Assembly (NCBI GenBank): GCA_036172455.1
Contig: JAXKVY010000001.1
Location: 310,001 to 374,000 of the forward strand
Length of the DNA stretch: 64,000 nt
Reading direction: 5' to 3'
Source of the DNA: Candidatus Izemoplasma sp.
GTDB lineage: Bacteria > Bacillota_I > Bacilli_A > Izemoplasmatales > Izemoplasmataceae
Part shown: positions 10,708 through 17,816 of the stretch, one piece after another
Position numbering within the stretch: position 1 is the first letter of the stretch
Layout: the number at the start of each line of letters is the position of its first letter
Position numbers and translations under genes: made by a program
The notes under the pieces: generated by a model
Told to the model about the DNA's origin: nothing
Seen by the model: the letters and a program-made list of their open reading frames with translations, nothing else
The model's database searches: none

Positions 10708-13029
10708 TTATGCGATTACTTGATACGGCACAATATCGACAATTTTTATTGTGCCATTGATTAATTTCACTGTATATAAATATGATTCACTATAAATTTC
10801 TGTTTCGTTTTGTCTTGTTAAATGAACTCGAAAAATATTGTCTTGATGCGCACTGACCTCAAAATCAAGAATTAAATCACCGACATAACTTCTTAAGTTT
10901 TCACAATCACGATGTTCGACTTCAGAATAAAAATCATCACACGTAAAGTTCCCAATCTCATCATAAGCTAGTGCGTCCATATAATCATCGATGAAGACGG
11001 TCATCTGTGCTTCTGTTATGTGATATGGGATATCTGTAAACAGTGGTGGGATTTTAAAACTATCTCCCATACTTGGAACAGTGATCGTTGTTGTGGTGAT
11101 ATTATCATCAACATCACGTAAACGGTAAGTTATTTCATAAAGCGTTTCATACCGTTTTGTCACAATCATTGAAATATCTTCAACTGTGAGTGACTGATAT
11201 TTTCCTAAGTTAGCTTCTCTTCTTGCAATATAGGCATCCTTATCGTAATGGGGATCAATGGTATCATCATATAATACATCCGATGTTACACTTTCATCAA
11301 GATAGAGCGATTGATACAAGTTCAACTGACGTTCAAACCGGTCTATTTCATTACCATGTTCTGGGTCAACTTCATAAGTGATTTGAACATCTTCTTTATA
11401 AAAATACGCCATGTCATTAATATAGACAGTGACGATTGATTCTACAATTGACGTTACACGTCCATTTTCTTTATAATATTTAACATTAAAGGTATTGTCT
11501 TTTGGTGCATTTTCAACACTAATCAACTCATACGTAAATCCGCGTTCACGCGTATTATAAAAGTCAATAATACAGTCATCTGTTATAAACGCAGCCTCTT
11601 TCGCTTGGTATGCACAATAATCATACGGATTAATCTTTGTAAATTCATAAAAGGCAGCCTCTAATAAGACTTCAGGAATATCTGAAGACATCATATGATA
11701 CTCTTCTTTTTCATAACTCGCAAGGAACCAACGCTTTGCTGTCTGATTATAATCTACGCGGATTTCATATGCTTCTTTTTCTGTGTTATCTAAATTGAAC
11801 GCTTCAACAAGATATTCATTTTCCGCAATATATGTGACTTGCTTAATCTCATATTTACTGTCCACCGATTGGAAAAAGTCTTGCTCGTTTTTACATGTTT
11901 TCACTAAATCAGGCGAGGAGGTTGAGATATATTTATCACAGATACTCGCTTGACTCAACCTACCGTAATCTAGGGCATAGATTGTATTTAGCATATTTTC
12001 TAAATCCTTAGGGCTTAGAAAATTGCTTTCAATCGTGTAATCAAACATATCAAAATAGAGTGTTAAGCTATAGTCTTCAGATAAAATATTGCGGACATCA
12101 AAATACATAGTGAGTTTTTTCTCTCCTGCTAAAATGAGTTTAAACACTAATTCATTATCAATTCGTTCATAATCAAAGATGACCGATTGGCTATCAATCA
12201 GATTCATAATTTCGATACATTCTGTATCAATTTTATTCTCTTGAAAACAGAGATTTCTTACATTACTTGTTGTCACACCACGCATGAACTCATTAATATA
12301 TATTTTAAGTTCATTAAATTCATTAATTACACTTTTATTATAGGTGATAATTTCATCAATTCGCATATCATCACCCAAAGATTCCATGGTGATATAGTAT
12401 TGATACACAATCCGGTAGTCTCTAGCAAGCGCTATATTATAAATATATGTAAACGCGTCGATGCGGAATAACGACACACTGTCAAACTTATCATCAAACA
12501 AACGTAAGTAATCTCGATTCTCTGTACATTCTACCTGCGTTTCTGCTGCGAAATATTCTTGACAAAGGACCTCAGGATCGTCCCGGTCATCTAATGCCAT
12601 AGTCGCATAAAATACAGCAACATCTTCTTTTGTAATATTAGGATTATCATTCATTGTTTGAAATAATACATTCGTAAAATAGATTTCATCGCCAATCATC
12701 TCATACTCGAATACAAACTGAAATACTTGGTTTTTGACACCTCTTTGTTCAACATAAATACTCTCGTTATTGATTGAAACGACAGGCTCACCTTCAAAAT
12801 CATCATTATACAGCAACAAATAATTGGTAAAGACCGCATTACAATCATCTGCATTTCTGACAAAATATCGATCACAAGTCACTGTCTCTGTGGTCGATAT
12901 TTCATCAATGATATCATTAAACTGTACGGTTGCGGTATCAATAATGACATCATCTGTGATACCTTCTTCTTCGCAACCAAATAATATTGTGATACTCATT
13001 AAGAAAACGATCGCTTTAAAGTAACGCAT
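10708..13029 (-). CDS. Large lipoprotein of repeated ~105-residue Cys-pair domains
   Basis: No known family recognised. The 773-residue product has a lipoprotein signal (MRYFKAIVFLMSITILFGC, lipobox Cys19), so it should be anchored on the outer face of the membrane. Beyond Cys19 it has exactly 12 cysteines, in six pairs: 52/63, 156/168, 261/271, 364/379, 472/486 and 697/709. The first five pairs are 103-108 residues apart and the last is 225 on, room for one cysteine-free copy. Each unit begins with a Cys-x2-Tyr/Phe-like helix and is followed by beta-rich, acidic, Tyr/Phe-rich sequence. I infer seven tandem domains of an NTF2-like or similar small fold, each with a possible disulphide. GGGGTGA precedes the ATG. 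It is monocistronic, downstream of the rnf terminator. Function unknown. Confidence 0.8.
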   Translation of the reverse strand: MRYFKAIVFLMSITILFGCEEEGITDDVIIDTATVQFNDIIDEISTTETVTCDRYFVRNADDCNAVFTNYLLLYNDDFEGEPVVSINNESIYVEQRGVKNQVFQFVFEYEMIGDEIYFTNVLFQTMNDNPNITKEDVAVFYATMALDDRDDPEVLCQEYFAAETQVECTENRDYLRLFDDKFDSVSLFRIDAFTYIYNIALARDYRIVYQYYITMESLGDDMRIDEIITYNKSVINEFNELKIYINEFMRGVTTSNVRNLCFQENKIDTECIEIMNLIDSQSVIFDYERIDNELVFKLILAGEKKLTMYFDVRNILSEDYSLTLYFDMFDYTIESNFLSPKDLENMLNTIYALDYGRLSQASICDKYISTSSPDLVKTCKNEQDFFQSVDSKYEIKQVTYIAENEYLVEAFNLDNTEKEAYEIRVDYNQTAKRWFLASYEKEEYHMMSSDIPEVLLEAAFYEFTKINPYDYCAYQAKEAAFITDDCIIDFYNTRERGFTYELISVENAPKDNTFNVKYYKENGRVTSIVESIVTVYINDMAYFYKEDVQITYEVDPEHGNEIDRFERQLNLYQSLYLDESVTSDVLYDDTIDPHYDKDAYIARREANLGKYQSLTVEDISMIVTKRYETLYEITYRLRDVDDNITTTTITVPSMGDSFKIPPLFTDIPYHITEAQMTVFIDDYMDALAYDEIGNFTCDDFYSEVEHRDCENLRSYVGDLILDFEVSAHQDNIFRVHLTRQNETEIYSESYLYTVKLINGTIKIVDIVPYQVIA

Positions 13030-13101: not shown

Positions 13102-13407
13102 TTATTTTTTGACCTTAATCAGTGTTCCATCTTGATTTGGATGGTCTTTGATATATTCCAAAATCGGATCATAATGTTCATCCTTACCGGGTTTACATGA
13201 AGATAATTGATCAACTTCACCCGCTACAATCCCTTCAGCAAATCCACTACATCCAGGATATCCGCATGCTCCACAGTTATATCCTGGGAGTAGTTCTGTG
13301 ATATCTTCTACGCGGTTATCTGCTTCAACTTTAAATATATCGGCCGCAAAGGCAAGTCCTAATCCTAAGACTAGACCCATAATAGCAAGGGTTAATGTGG
13401 CAGCCAC
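13102..13407 (-). CDS. rnfB: Minimal RnfB (ion-translocating oxidoreductase subunit B), one Fe-S domain only
   Basis: RnfB accepts electrons from ferredoxin in the Rnf Na+/H+ pump. This copy has 101 residues: a membrane anchor (about 3-25) and one [4Fe-4S] domain with Cys45, Cys48, Cys53 and Cys71 (YNCGACGYPGCSGF). Usual RnfB proteins are more than twice as long, because ferredoxin-type domains with two or more extra clusters follow; here they are absent and a strong terminator follows the stop at once, so this is not a frameshift remnant. The GTG start shares its G with the TAG of the upstream small gene, which suggests translational coupling. Another protein may supply the missing clusters. 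Confidence 0.88.
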   Translation of the reverse strand: MAATLTLAIMGLVLGLGLAFAADIFKVEADNRVEDITELLPGYNCGACGYPGCSGFAEGIVAGEVDQLSSCKPGKDEHYDPILEYIKDHPNQDGTLIKVKK

Positions 13408-13568
13408 TATGCATCACCCCGATGCGAACAACTAAAGTTATGACAACTTTTACAAGTAGCCTCATCAATTTTATCAAGCGATGCTTGTGGGACGGGCACT
13501 TTTTTATTCAAGGCATAACTAAGTATATATACCAAAACGAGTGAGCCAATCATAATATATGGTAACAT
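13407..13568 (-). CDS. 53-residue membrane-anchored Cys-rich protein in the rnf operon
   Basis: This small frame lies between rnfA and rnfB, with its ATG at 13568 and its TAG overlapping the rnfB GTG by one base. The ATG follows the rnfA stop with no gap. The product has an N-terminal membrane helix (about residues 4-20), a short polar linker and a terminal cluster TCKSCHNFSCSHRG with Cys39, Cys42 and Cys47. No family can be proved by eye. The size, topology and Cys cluster resemble NqrM, the iron-delivery protein needed to build the metal site between NqrD and NqrE, which are homologues of RnfA and RnfE. FeoB-associated Cys-rich proteins look similar. The CKSCH string also fits a haem-c motif, but no cytochrome c genes are seen. 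An Rnf maturation role is an inference. Confidence 0.75.
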   Translation of the reverse strand: MLPYIMIGSLVLVYILSYALNKKVPVPQASLDKIDEATCKSCHNFSCSHRGDA

Positions 13569-14174
13569 TTAAATCACCCCAACTAAGCCAAAGAAAGCCA
13601 TTGACATAATACCAGCAACGATTAAACTTATCGGAACACCACGCCAAGCCTTTGGAACATTAGCGGCTTCTAAACGCTCACGAATAGACGAAAAAGCAAA
13701 GATTACTAAGCCAAACCCTAATCCGGTACCGATTGCGGTCGATACCGCTATAAATAACCCTTGACCAAACGGGACAGTAGCTCCCCATATATTCGCTATA
13801 TTCCCTTCACTGACACCTAAAATAGCACAGTTTGTCGTGATTAACGGTAAATAAATACCCAGTGATTTATATAATGATGTACTATAGCGTTTGATTACCA
13901 TTTCAACAAATTGTACAAGTGATGCGATAACTAAGATAAATGCAATGGTTGAAATATACTCAATATTATATTGATATAGCACTAAATCATATAATGTATA
14001 GGTTACAGCAGAAGCAATAACCATGACGAATAAGACTGCAGCGCTCATACCAAGTGCACTGCTAGATTTTTTACTGACACCTAAGAAAGGACAAATTCCT
14101 AGAAATTGCATTAAGATGACATTGTTAATTAACATCGCAGAAATGATTGCCGTAGCAAATACTGTAAAACTCAT
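13569..14174 (-). CDS. rnfA: Rnf complex subunit RnfA
   Basis: A 201-residue, six-helix membrane subunit of the Rnf complex, homologous to NqrE. Seen: MTFxxF-like N-terminus, LMQFLGICPFLGVSKK and TTNCAILGVSEG, whose cysteines correspond to those that, together with RnfE, hold the intramembrane iron site in this family; then GTGLGFGLVIFAFSSIRERL. The ATG overlaps the rnfE stop by 4 bases (ATGA). The next gene starts directly after its stop. Confidence 0.96.
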   Translation of the reverse strand: MSFTVFATAIISAMLINNVILMQFLGICPFLGVSKKSSSALGMSAAVLFVMVIASAVTYTLYDLVLYQYNIEYISTIAFILVIASLVQFVEMVIKRYSTSLYKSLGIYLPLITTNCAILGVSEGNIANIWGATVPFGQGLFIAVSTAIGTGLGFGLVIFAFSSIRERLEAANVPKAWRGVPISLIVAGIMSMAFFGLVGVI

Positions 14175-14935
14175 GCTGCCTCACCACTTTCTTTTAAGGC
14201 TTTTGCTTTTTTTCGTGCTAACGCTTCTTTTTTCTTTTGTTCAATCCAGGCTTTTTTTGCCGCAGCTTCTTTCTCTTCTTTTCGAACTTTTTTAAATTGG
14301 AAGAAGGCAAGGATAAACGCGAGGGCAATAAAGGCACCTGGTGGTAAACTAAACATCGCAAGACCAAAATCTTTAATGGTTATTGAATCATCGAATAAAT
14401 GGATAATTAAATCCAATGATAAACTTACCGGCTGATCGACAAAGAATGGTAAGTATTCTCCCCAAACCAGTCCACCAGTAGCTAAGAACTCACGAATTGA
14501 TCCAATTACAATGAGGGCAAAGGTAAATCCTAATGCCATACCTAACCCATCGATAGCACTGTCTAAAACATTATTTTTAGACGCAAACGATTCAGCGCGA
14601 CCTAAGATTAAACAGTTTACAACAATCAATGGAATAAATATACCTAGTGATTCATATAAAGCAAACGCATACGCTTCGGTAAACATCTCAACAAGTGTTA
14701 CAAACGTTGCAATAATAACAATATATGAAGGGGTTCTAACATGTTCTGGGATATAGTGACGCAATAAACTGACGACAATATTACTAAAGGTTAATACAAA
14801 GATAACGAGTAATCCCATCCCAAGTGCAGTTTCAAACGTCGCCGTTACCGCTAAGGCTGGACACATTCCTAAAAGAAATACAAAGATCGGATTTTCGTTA
14901 AAGAACCCTTTTAAGAAGTTTTCTTTTTTACTCAT
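14171..14935 (-). CDS. rnfE: Rnf complex subunit RnfE with a charged C-terminal tail
   Basis: Membrane subunit homologous to NqrD and RnfA. The 254-residue product has the family motifs LLGMCPALAVTA and VVNCLILGRAESFAS (the paired cysteines), then GLGMALGFTFALIVIGSIREF and PPGAFIALAFILAFF. The last ~40 residues are a Lys/Glu/Ala-rich tail (KEEKEAAAKKAWIEQKKKE) longer than is usual for RnfE, probably cytoplasmic and helical. The start chosen is the ATG at 14935 (GGTGAG upstream), overlapping the rnfG stop by 8 bases; the longer frame to 14977 would lie within rnfG. Confidence 0.94.
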   Translation of the reverse strand: MSKKENFLKGFFNENPIFVFLLGMCPALAVTATFETALGMGLLVIFVLTFSNIVVSLLRHYIPEHVRTPSYIVIIATFVTLVEMFTEAYAFALYESLGIFIPLIVVNCLILGRAESFASKNNVLDSAIDGLGMALGFTFALIVIGSIREFLATGGLVWGEYLPFFVDQPVSLSLDLIIHLFDDSITIKDFGLAMFSLPPGAFIALAFILAFFQFKKVRKEEKEAAAKKAWIEQKKKEALARKKAKALKESGEAA

Positions 14936-15449
14936 TTGTCTCACCACCTTCGATATAGTCAACTGTTGCTTGTACAATTGTTTTTACCGATGTATATGTA
15001 TAAGTAGCCCCAGTCTTACTATCATAACTAACATCTGATAGCGATTGATCACTAAGTCGTGGTAAATACGTTTTTTCAATCGTATTAACAAATGTGACCG
15101 TATTAGATGTCGACTGTATCACGACATCGGTGATGGTATTATTAACAACGCCGACTAAGACCGTGACATCACCATAATTGTTCATATCATATCCTTGATA
15201 GGCACGTCCAACTTCTTGTCCGTTACTATCATAGATGATCACTTCTTTCGTTAATACGCCATCTAATGATTTTGTTTCAAGCGTAAACTCTCCGGTTAAA
15301 TCAAACATCTCTTCATACAATGCTAATTCGCGTTTCTGTGTATTCTCTTCAATGACAGGTGATGTTATTGCATTAACACCCCAGATAAAGAATCCACTTA
15401 AGGCACCAATAATAACAAGGACAATAGCTACTTTTAATTTATCCAGCAT
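14928..15449 (-). CDS. rnfG: Rnf complex subunit RnfG (covalent FMN)
   Basis: A 173-residue subunit with one N-terminal membrane helix (about 5-28) and an extracytoplasmic FMN-binding domain. The flavin is attached by phosphoester bond to the last Thr of the S/T-G-A-T motif, seen here as SKTGATYTYTS (Thr149). AGGTG stands 6 bases before the ATG at 15449, inside the end of rnfD. Covalent flavinylation needs ApbE, which is not in the window. Confidence 0.93.
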   Translation of the reverse strand: MLDKLKVAIVLVIIGALSGFFIWGVNAITSPVIEENTQKRELALYEEMFDLTGEFTLETKSLDGVLTKEVIIYDSNGQEVGRAYQGYDMNNYGDVTVLVGVVNNTITDVVIQSTSNTVTFVNTIEKTYLPRLSDQSLSDVSYDSKTGATYTYTSVKTIVQATVDYIEGGETNE

Positions 15450-16509
15450 AAGAAACACCTACTAACGTTACGACAATGGATAAGATAATAATTGCGATAA
15501 AGATGAGTGATCGCTTACGATTAAAGCGAGGATGAGTGACTTTATAGTAATCAAAACTTGTCACAAACATATTCATAATTAAAATACTGAAGACAACACC
15601 TTCTGGTAACGCGCCAAAGATTCGAATAATGAAGGTAATGACCCCTAAGGCAAACCCATAATAGACTCTTGCTGGTTTCGTTATAGGAGATGTAATAGGG
15701 TCTGTGGCCATATAAATTGCACCCAACATTAATCCCCCGCTAAATATGTGATAGAGAGGATACCATAGTCCCAATCCTTGTTGAATGGCAACGGCTAATG
15801 CTAACACAAATACCGTTCCAATATACATTAAAGGTATGCGGATTTCAAAGCTAGTTCTTACTGCTAAATATCCTCCACCTAGTAATAATAATAACGCACT
15901 TGTTTCACCGATACTCCCAGGAATTCCTATTCCTGTAAAAAGATCCATAATTGGATAGTGATTTAAGACATCCGCACTAAACAAATCAGCATTGTTCATA
16001 CTGAGTGCCGTTGCGCCAGCAACGCCATCAATATTAGTTTGATAGGTTGCTAATGTGGCAAAGTTCACGACAACTAAAACACGCGCTACTGCGGCTGGAT
16101 TAAAGATATTTTGTCCCATACCACCAAAGAGTAGTTTGGCAAGTAATATCCCTAATACACCTGAGAGCGCAACAACCCAAAGAGGTGTTTGGTCGGGTAA
16201 GGTTAACCCATAAATCAACCCTGAGGTTACCGCACTAAAGTTGTATAATGAAAATTGCTTATTGATTACTTTAAACGATTCACCTTGCAGCAAATCTTGT
16301 ATTTGATAAAAGACATATTCTGTTACTAACATCGAAACAATACTTGTGAGAATAATCCATAATGCAGGCAATCCAAAACTATAGATTGCAAAAAAAGTTG
16401 CGGGTAATAGGGCAATGGTAACATCGCGCATCATCCTTGGTGCATTCGCATTAGGTCGCCGTAAGTATGGTGATGTCTTTCGAATAATTTTTGGCATAGT
16501 ATTTGTCAT
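15439..16509 (-). CDS. rnfD: Rnf complex subunit RnfD (covalent FMN)
   Basis: A 356-residue polytopic subunit of the ion pump, homologous to NqrB. Seen: NAPRMMRDVTIALLPATFFA near the N-terminus, GGMGQNIFNPAAVARV, the flavinylation motif GVAGATALS (Thr167), and PITKPARVYYGFALGVITF. The ATG at 16509 has AGGTGA 5 bases upstream and begins just after the rnfC stop; an in-frame GTG at 16518 overlaps that stop but lacks a site. Confidence 0.95.
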   Translation of the reverse strand: MTNTMPKIIRKTSPYLRRPNANAPRMMRDVTIALLPATFFAIYSFGLPALWIILTSIVSMLVTEYVFYQIQDLLQGESFKVINKQFSLYNFSAVTSGLIYGLTLPDQTPLWVVALSGVLGILLAKLLFGGMGQNIFNPAAVARVLVVVNFATLATYQTNIDGVAGATALSMNNADLFSADVLNHYPIMDLFTGIGIPGSIGETSALLLLLGGGYLAVRTSFEIRIPLMYIGTVFVLALAVAIQQGLGLWYPLYHIFSGGLMLGAIYMATDPITSPITKPARVYYGFALGVITFIIRIFGALPEGVVFSILIMNMFVTSFDYYKVTHPRFNRKRSLIFIAIIILSIVVTLVGVSYAG

Positions 16510-16514
16510 ATTAA

Positions 16515-17816
16515 TCACCTAATCAATCGTTTGGCTTTACGGACATAATCTGTCACATGAATTTTCGATGTACAGACATACGCACATAAGCCACATTCGA
16601 TACAACGATCCGCGTGTAAACTCTTCATTTGATCTTTATCATTGCGTTTTACTGCATTCATGATCTGAACGGGTTCGAGATGCGCGGGACAACTGTAGAC
16701 ACAACTGCCACAACGTACACACGGTTCTTCTTTATATTCTGTATTTTTTAAGACAATAACACTTGTTGTTGTTTTGGATACAATGACATCGTCACTTACA
16801 GTACTGACCCCCATCATTGGACCACCCATCACAACAAGTACTTCATCAAAATCTTCTTTGTACCCATCACTTTGACGAATTAAATCCTGGATACTCGTTC
16901 CTACACGAACACGGTAATTTTGTGGATAATTAATCGCATCACCCGTTAAGGTAAAGTAACGTTCAACAACCGGTAAGTTATGCTTTACGGCATTATAAAT
17001 ACCGGCAGTGGTACTGACATTAAATCCTAATACGCCATATGACATTGGCAACTCACCATGTGGTACTTCAATGCCTAAAGCATTTTTAAAGACTTCAATT
17101 TCCCACCCTTGAGGATAATAGTTACCAAGTCTAACAACTTCGATATTTAAATCACTATACCGTCGCTCAATCACTTGCGTTAAGACTTCGTATAATGGGT
17201 TTTTATCTGCTTTAATCGCAATCATACCATGCTCACAATTGAGTGCTTGCATAACATACTTTAAGCCCATGATTACTTCTTCTGGTCGATCAAGAATTAA
17301 ACGGTAATCACTACTTAAATACGGTTCACACTCAACCGCATTGACAACGACATGGTTAATGGTCTCTTTTGTAGCTAACTTAATATATGATGGAAAGCCA
17401 CTTCCACCAAGTCCTACTAAGGCCTTTTGTTTAAGAATCTCAACCATATCATCTTGATCCAATTTATCAATCACATGATCCGGACGATCAGTGATGGTTT
17501 TATGATAGGTATTCTTAAAATCATTTTTGATTTCAATGCAATCTACTTTACGACCAGTTCGGTGTAGTTTTTTACCAATTTTACCAATCGTACCACTAAT
17601 TGTCGCGTGAATTGGTTGTTCGAAAAATCCCCCGTGACGGACACCAATGACTTCACCAAAATCAACATGATCTCCTTCATCAACATATAAATCATATGTT
17701 TTACAGCGACCATTTTGTAAGTGAATATAAACAGTCTCTGGATCGAGATATGTTTGTGTTGGTAAGGCCCTGGTTAGTTCCTTATAATCCCGTACCTTTC
17801 TTGATTTTTTAATCAT
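16515..17816 (-). CDS. rnfC: Rnf complex subunit RnfC (NADH-binding, two 4Fe-4S clusters)
   Basis: Peripheral subunit that exchanges electrons with NAD(H). The 433 residues hold the family parts: an N-terminal barrel-sandwich domain (GVRHGGFFEQPIHATISGTI), the nucleotide/FMN-binding GLGGSGFPSYIK (136-147), NAVECEPYLSSD, and two ferredoxin-type motifs, Cys366/369/372/376 and Cys405/408/411/415. GGAGG precedes the ATG. First gene of the rnf set, 14 bases downstream of the phosphoglucomutase gene, so the two are probably transcribed together. Confidence 0.96.
   Translation of the reverse strand: MIKKSRKVRDYKELTRALPTQTYLDPETVYIHLQNGRCKTYDLYVDEGDHVDFGEVIGVRHGGFFEQPIHATISGTIGKIGKKLHRTGRKVDCIEIKNDFKNTYHKTITDRPDHVIDKLDQDDMVEILKQKALVGLGGSGFPSYIKLATKETINHVVVNAVECEPYLSSDYRLILDRPEEVIMGLKYVMQALNCEHGMIAIKADKNPLYEVLTQVIERRYSDLNIEVVRLGNYYPQGWEIEVFKNALGIEVPHGELPMSYGVLGFNVSTTAGIYNAVKHNLPVVERYFTLTGDAINYPQNYRVRVGTSIQDLIRQSDGYKEDFDEVLVVMGGPMMGVSTVSDDVIVSKTTTSVIVLKNTEYKEEPCVRCGSCVYSCPAHLEPVQIMNAVKRNDKDQMKSLHADRCIECGLCAYVCTSKIHVTDYVRKAKRLIR

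Follow-up and report, generated by a model that had tools for sequence, protein, structure and literature searches.

The window, a stretch of 64,000 nucleotides from a Candidatus Izemoplasma genome, carries an rnf operon in which a gene of 53 codons lies between rnfA and a short form of rnfB. The gene encodes a small one-helix protein with a cysteine cluster, here called the small Cys protein. It is a real gene under strong purifying selection; practically all genomes with a short-RnfB pump have kept it and hardly any others have it. Our leading interpretation, to which we assign a probability of about one half, is that it is an accessory factor dedicated to a separate Rnf lineage with short RnfB, i.e. 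a membrane-tethered helper for iron or Fe-S clusters. On the best reading of the comparisons below, such a helper would work like NqrM or RseC, yet belong to neither family.

A small gene between rnfA and rnfB

The operon has the order rnfC-D-G-E-A-small Cys gene-rnfB (Table 1). There is zero gap between the stop of rnfA (13569) and the ATG of the small Cys gene (13568), and its TAG has one G, at 13407, in common with the GTG of rnfB. The same Shine-Dalgarno-like octamer lies 4-5 nt 5' of both start codons. RnfB has 101 aa; the PF04060 Fe-S domain is its sole domain and the 2[4Fe-4S] ferredoxin domain is lacking. Read from the translations, the intramembrane cysteines are located in GICPFLG and TTNCAILG of RnfA and in GMCPALA and VVNCLILG of RnfE; the true start of rnfE is probably inside the listed frame, at MSKKENF... 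The initial annotation had described a complete, unannotated frame directly after rnfA with a stop overlapping the rnfB start by one base, RnfA and RnfE with both cysteines each, and an unusually short RnfB. All of this was confirmed, ‘unannotated’ in the sense that the window protein matched no Pfam or NCBIfam model at E<=1. Directly 3' of rnfB this genus has a gene for a 773-aa putative lipoprotein (10708-13029, minus strand); many relatives have pyruvate phosphate dikinase in this place.

Table 1. Features of the rnf operon, with positions as numbered in the window.
Feature	Position	Strand	Product, details and basis
small Cys protein gene, 53 codons	13407-13568	minus	MLPYIMIGSLVLVYILSYALNKKVPVPQASLDKIDEATCKSCHNFSCSHRGDA and stop, 53 aa, ATG start
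parts of the small Cys protein	TM helix about residues 2-23; cytosolic C39-x2-C42-x4-C47		sequence, conservation, model
GGGGTGAT, Shine-Dalgarno-like, before the small Cys gene, within the rnfA 3' end	13573-13580	minus	sequence
GGGGTGAT, Shine-Dalgarno-like, for rnfB, within the small Cys gene 3' end	13413-13420	minus	sequence
rnfB, short form, GTG start	13102-13407	minus	101 aa; TM and one PF04060 Fe-S domain
rnfA, both intramembrane cysteines present	13569-14174	minus	frame reading and domain search
rnfE, both intramembrane cysteines present	14171-14977	minus	frame reading and domain search
rnfG, FMN-binding domain	14928-15458	minus	domain search
rnfD	15439-16518	minus	domain search
rnfC	16515-17816	minus	domain search

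The copy in the closest congener is 96% identical; 20 codons differ synonymously and 3 non-synonymously (dN/dS about 0.06). Four of the five alternative frames had the reverse pattern and all five contained stops. Because the codon changes are mostly synonymous and the other frames carry stops, the frame is not a chance ORF; conservation in relatives equally ruled this out. When 60 relatives were searched at the protein level, most proved to have the gene, and its usual position was precisely between rnfA and a short rnfB. A profile search of contigs with a 6-row alignment returned close relatives from Candidatus Izimaplasma/Izemoplasma and Mycoplasmatota MAGs. Thus, the search for small frames between rnfA and rnfB which the initial annotation had proposed found a frame in the same place in many genomes. 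In a paper on Peloplasma the Rnf genes MDI6452240-41 and 43 are listed and 42 is omitted (PMC11122141). Gene 42 may be the small Cys gene, skipped by annotation.

Features of the small Cys protein

The helix is clear across 101 members of the family (mean hydropathy 2.6), and in 99 of these the positive charge is higher after the helix than before. Since the C-side of the helix is more positive, the positive-inside rule predicts that the cysteines face the cytosol; by this charge bias the topology would be N-out/C-in. Of the 101 members, 87 have the motif C-x2-C-x4-C and 11 have C-x2-C-x5-C. An extra cysteine between helix and motif is present in 66/101 and absent from the window protein. The helix and three cysteines described by the initial annotation are conserved across the family. 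In fact, among 68 members the three cysteines are the only invariant positions. In the otherwise loosely conserved remainder, LNxKTPxP is a conserved stretch that separates the helix from the cysteines; the looseness also suits a structural tail. An AlphaFold model of the window protein has a helix at residues 2-23 and a mostly loose tail (mean pLDDT 83). A profile search against the PDB gave helix-level matches only (best E 0.34).

The same genome contains a paralogue (G000, C4:56944-57078; locus L021), located divergent to pdhA, whose product has C-x2-C-x5-C and one additional C-terminal cysteine. The paralogue group to which it belongs is often divergent to pdhA or htpG, a setting which recurs in other genomes.

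The gene is retained with the short-RnfB pump

The phyletic distribution was examined in 245 genomes of the phylum, comparing the A1 profile at E<1e-4 with PF02508 (RnfA/RnfE). The A1 profile was positive in 69 genomes and PF02508 in 82; every one of the 69 belonged to the 82. At this threshold the small Cys gene was absent from all 163 genomes without an Rnf-Nqr pair. Sixty-six of 75 copies were located directly after rnfA on the same strand. The 13 exceptions, i.e. Rnf-Nqr genomes below the A1 threshold, were inspected individually. This yielded five more copies and brought the count to 74/82. One adjoins ung (G037) and a divergent one is in place between the operon genes (G288). Three genomes of family f12 (G116, G229, G262) have versions of 35-41 aa in place with C-x2-C-x2/3-C; as these minimal copies were found by reading the intergenic gap, they are weaker evidence. 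The remaining genomes were without the gene. No RnfB is present in G076, G112, G150, G156 and G290; their complex is Nqr-like and includes an NqrF-type protein (domains Fer2, FAD and NAD, Pfam-checked in G076 and in the window's own genome). G201 and G234 have distant Rnf-Nqr homologues only. In G286 RnfB is full-length, with 267 aa and Fer4 repeats.

Two further scans covered 392 genomes and compared the small Cys gene with PF04060; G303 and G374 were left outside the classes. A PF04060 protein was also present in 116 of the 118 small-gene positives. Of the other two, G250 was a FeoB-associated protein beside feoB and G266 was a genuine orphan, a copy kept though neither RnfB nor an Rnf-Nqr pair was detected. 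G381, G388 and G407, which have a long RnfB, were without the gene, whereas the short-RnfB members of their family f10 have it, as have those of f21. The full-length-RnfB operons of G388, G407 and G381 (L232, L233 and L234) probably represent a different, horizontally acquired Rnf lineage. They have an ApbE-like lipoprotein nearby, and the rnfA frame of G407 is broken into two.

In a single-gene tree of RnfA (FastTree) all sampled short-RnfB complexes formed one clade with the long-RnfB complexes outside. As far as this tree goes, short RnfB and the small Cys gene appear to be shared marks of one Rnf lineage. Because both trace to one lineage, their association counts as a single evolutionary event. 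The stronger functional evidence is the retention of the gene throughout this lineage, even when unlinked, and its absence from the sampled genomes with Nqr-like complexes only or with long RnfB. The initial annotation had suggested, as one of two possibilities, an electron-carrying partner of the short RnfB. The partnership as such gained support from occurrence with short-RnfB Rnf and absence at full-length RnfB, albeit with the weight of one event.

Linkage to rnf was not universal. The sister families f2 and f3 have the gene directly upstream of ung, away from rnf, and f21, f22 and G265 have it in the aspS-deaminase region. The neighbours of family members are rnf, ung, the aspS region, pdhA or htpG. 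Copy number and RnfB clusters are not related 1:1; in G013, for example, a single copy goes with two short-RnfB clusters. A strict one-copy-per-cluster subunit was therefore rejected. Unlinked copies, a copy number independent of RnfB and a sequence that is loose apart from the cysteines fit an accessory gene better than a core subunit, and co-retention without linkage is typical of helper genes.

The main rival to a helper, which we consider rather unlikely, is a permanent small subunit beside the short RnfB. It would replace part of the lost ferredoxin domain, either as a docking element for ferredoxin in solution or with one Fe-S cluster of its own in the electron path. The association with short-RnfB Rnf, the absence from the four long-RnfB genomes G286, G381, G388 and G407, the overlap of the small gene stop with the rnfB start and the fourth cysteine in two thirds of the members are all in its favour. 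However, only three cysteines are invariant, the fourth is missing in the window protein itself and the spacing is not a ferredoxin motif. The location outside the operon in several families and the unmatched copy number also speak against a permanent subunit. In addition, the long-RnfB operons represent another Rnf lineage, which makes this a contrast between lineages.

Across the phylum, almost all genomes with Rnf have an RnfB without the ferredoxin domain, in frames of about 92-150 aa. An RnfB with two Fe-S domains (183-187 aa) occurs in G272 and G421. At both loci (L238 and L237, respectively) a CsoR/DUF156-like small gene is downstream of rnfB, and G421 has a second small Cys gene copy nearby.

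Comparison with NqrM

PMC12174285, a 2025 review of RNF and NQR, and annotated sequences were the sources on NqrM. According to the review, which names NqrM for Nqr only, the protein seems to be needed for the Nqr [2Fe-2S] (PMC12174285). Like NqrM, the small Cys protein has a single N-terminal helix, a basic [KR]K[ST] turn and a Cys-rich cytosolic tail; the size is similar and the gene adjoins those of the partner pump, here rnfA. Alphaproteobacterial NqrM even has C-x2-C. The cysteine pattern of NqrM is GSCGG plus C-x-C-x3-C, however, whereas the small Cys family has C-x2-C-x3-6-C and no GSCGG. NqrM goes with Nqr; the small Cys gene is encoded with Rnf and absent beside the Nqr-like-only complexes of the phylum. 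A search with the NqrM model PF04400 gave no hit above the curated cut-off in 61 genomes, and no member of alignments A1, A2 and A3 was listed as matching it. Profile-profile alignment (hhalign) returned a probability of 34%, which column-shuffled NqrM tails equalled or exceeded in 13-30 of 150 cases. Thus, a likeness which looked convincing side by side failed in profile and shuffle tests, and a true NqrM homologue that fills the RnfA/RnfE [2Fe-2S] site is very improbable.

The other suggestion of the initial annotation was that the gene does for Rnf what NqrM does for Nqr. The comparison with the NqrM profile which it proposed left homology undetectable, and kinship with NqrM found no support. 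What stands is a conserved, Rnf-linked and co-retained one-helix protein with predicted cytosolic cysteines, for which such a function is plausible. Filling of the RnfA/RnfE iron centre as a general task was weakened as well, since genomes with Nqr-like complexes only keep an RnfA/E-type pair without the gene. Because long-RnfB and Nqr-like complexes of the phylum do without it, maturation of RnfA/E as such needs no small Cys gene.

FeoB-associated proteins and RseC

The best profile-profile match was to the FeoB-associated proteins (PF12669). These are alike in design: about 45-65 aa, one helix, then a basic turn and a cytosolic Cys cluster, and their motif is commonly associated with iron binding (PMC8749426). 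The hhalign probability was 95% (91% when trimmed) and 1/150 shuffles was as good; as both profiles consist of a short helix and cysteines, convergence is possible. In hmmscan 11 of 14 ung-linked members weakly matched PF12669 (best E 1.4e-4); the window protein had no match at E<=10 and no member tested reached the 27-bit cut-off. Conversely, the PF12669 model found several small-gene loci below cut-off, with 17.7-21.8 bits for the loci listed. The small Cys family differs in being rnf-linked, not feoB-linked, and in its LNxKTPxP stretch. Adjacency or fusion to FeoB was not found in the family; the feoB-linked match in G250 is a different protein.

RseC is another membrane protein tied to Rnf; in Parabacteroides rseC adjoins rnfB. 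The last three of its cysteines (C-x2-C-x5-C) are able to hold an O2-sensitive Fe-S cluster and enable Rsx function (PMC11729352), and rseC deletion in C. ljungdahlii abolishes autotrophy and lowers rnf transcripts during autotrophy (PMC9124969). Among the Clostridia, Blautia and Terrisporobacter are named as having Rnf operons that lack rseC (PMC9124969). A regulator or redox sensor of the RseC type, which would adjust the expression or activity of rnf via an O2- or iron-sensitive cluster, was considered. The cytosolic motif of the small Cys protein, C-x2-C-x4/5-C, resembles that of RseC, and RseC is practically absent from the phylum (two weak matches over cut-off in 245 genomes). Yet RseC has 140-160 aa with two helices after the cysteines, whereas the small Cys protein has mostly 35-100 aa and one helix before them. 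The alignment covered about 19 columns only, without the two RseC helices. A column-shuffle control indicated that spacing matters, which says nothing of relatedness. With the RseC/MucC profile (PF04246) no match was seen among the members tested apart from one at E 0.11. Finally, a membrane protein of 53 aa leaves no space for DNA binding by a separate part. A role as RseC-type regulator is thus improbable.

For other phyla, the Rnf and Nqr operons came from records labelled as plasmids. The operons compared from Clostridia, Fusobacterium and E. coli had no small gene between rnfA and rnfB. Their RnfB resembles the small Cys protein in having a single helix N-terminal to cytosolic Fe-S cysteines and in being encoded by a neighbouring gene; it differs in being full-length (192-429 aa) with ferredoxin clusters.

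Proposed role of the small Cys protein

From these data we infer that the protein binds iron or a cluster, that it is accessory rather than stoichiometric, and which clients it may serve. The helper would be anchored by its one helix with the N-terminus outside, placing C-x2-C-x4/5-C at the cytosolic membrane surface. There the Cys site may transiently bind ferrous iron or a nascent Fe-S cluster and pass it to membrane-bound Rnf apo-subunits made alongside. Candidate recipients are the [4Fe-4S] domain of RnfB, the intramembrane [2Fe-2S] of RnfA/RnfE, or both; gene adjacency and translational overlap do not favour one over the other. The scaffold would be that of the FeoB-associated Cys-rich membrane proteins, the work that of NqrM for Nqr or of RseC for Rsx/Rnf.

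Tentatively, and with somewhat more doubt than confidence, we go one step further. The small Cys proteins may be a new family and an obligate partner of the short-RnfB Rnf branch in wall-less bacteria, in which the electron-input ferredoxin domain was lost and a FeoB-associated-like Cys protein took over one step in cluster supply or in electron entry. This would be the first known Fe-S helper dedicated to Rnf outside the RseC type. The gene is a testable candidate for the making of the Rnf intramembrane [2Fe-2S] or the RnfB clusters across a whole bacterial phylum. It also marks a separate Rnf branch with a minimal RnfB, a minimal electron-entry subunit worth its own study. More generally, the data suggest that Cys mini-proteins of the FeoB-associated type are a module which can be reused wherever iron is handled at the membrane.

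Further Rnf and Nqr-like clusters in the same genome

A second Rnf cluster (G000, C4:95000-111000; L093) has no small gene in place. It encodes a [FeFe]-hydrogenase-like protein, a NuoF-type Fe-S protein, RnfC, D, G, E, A and a short RnfB; its RnfG has 650 aa with three FMN-binding matches. Another cluster (G000, C2:309000-321000; L092) contains Nqr-like RnfD-G-E-A and an NqrF-like protein and is without NqrA, RnfC and RnfB. No NqrM was found in this genome, which carries the Nqr-like cluster. Judged by its gene content, L092 appears to be a composite Nqr/Rnf complex.
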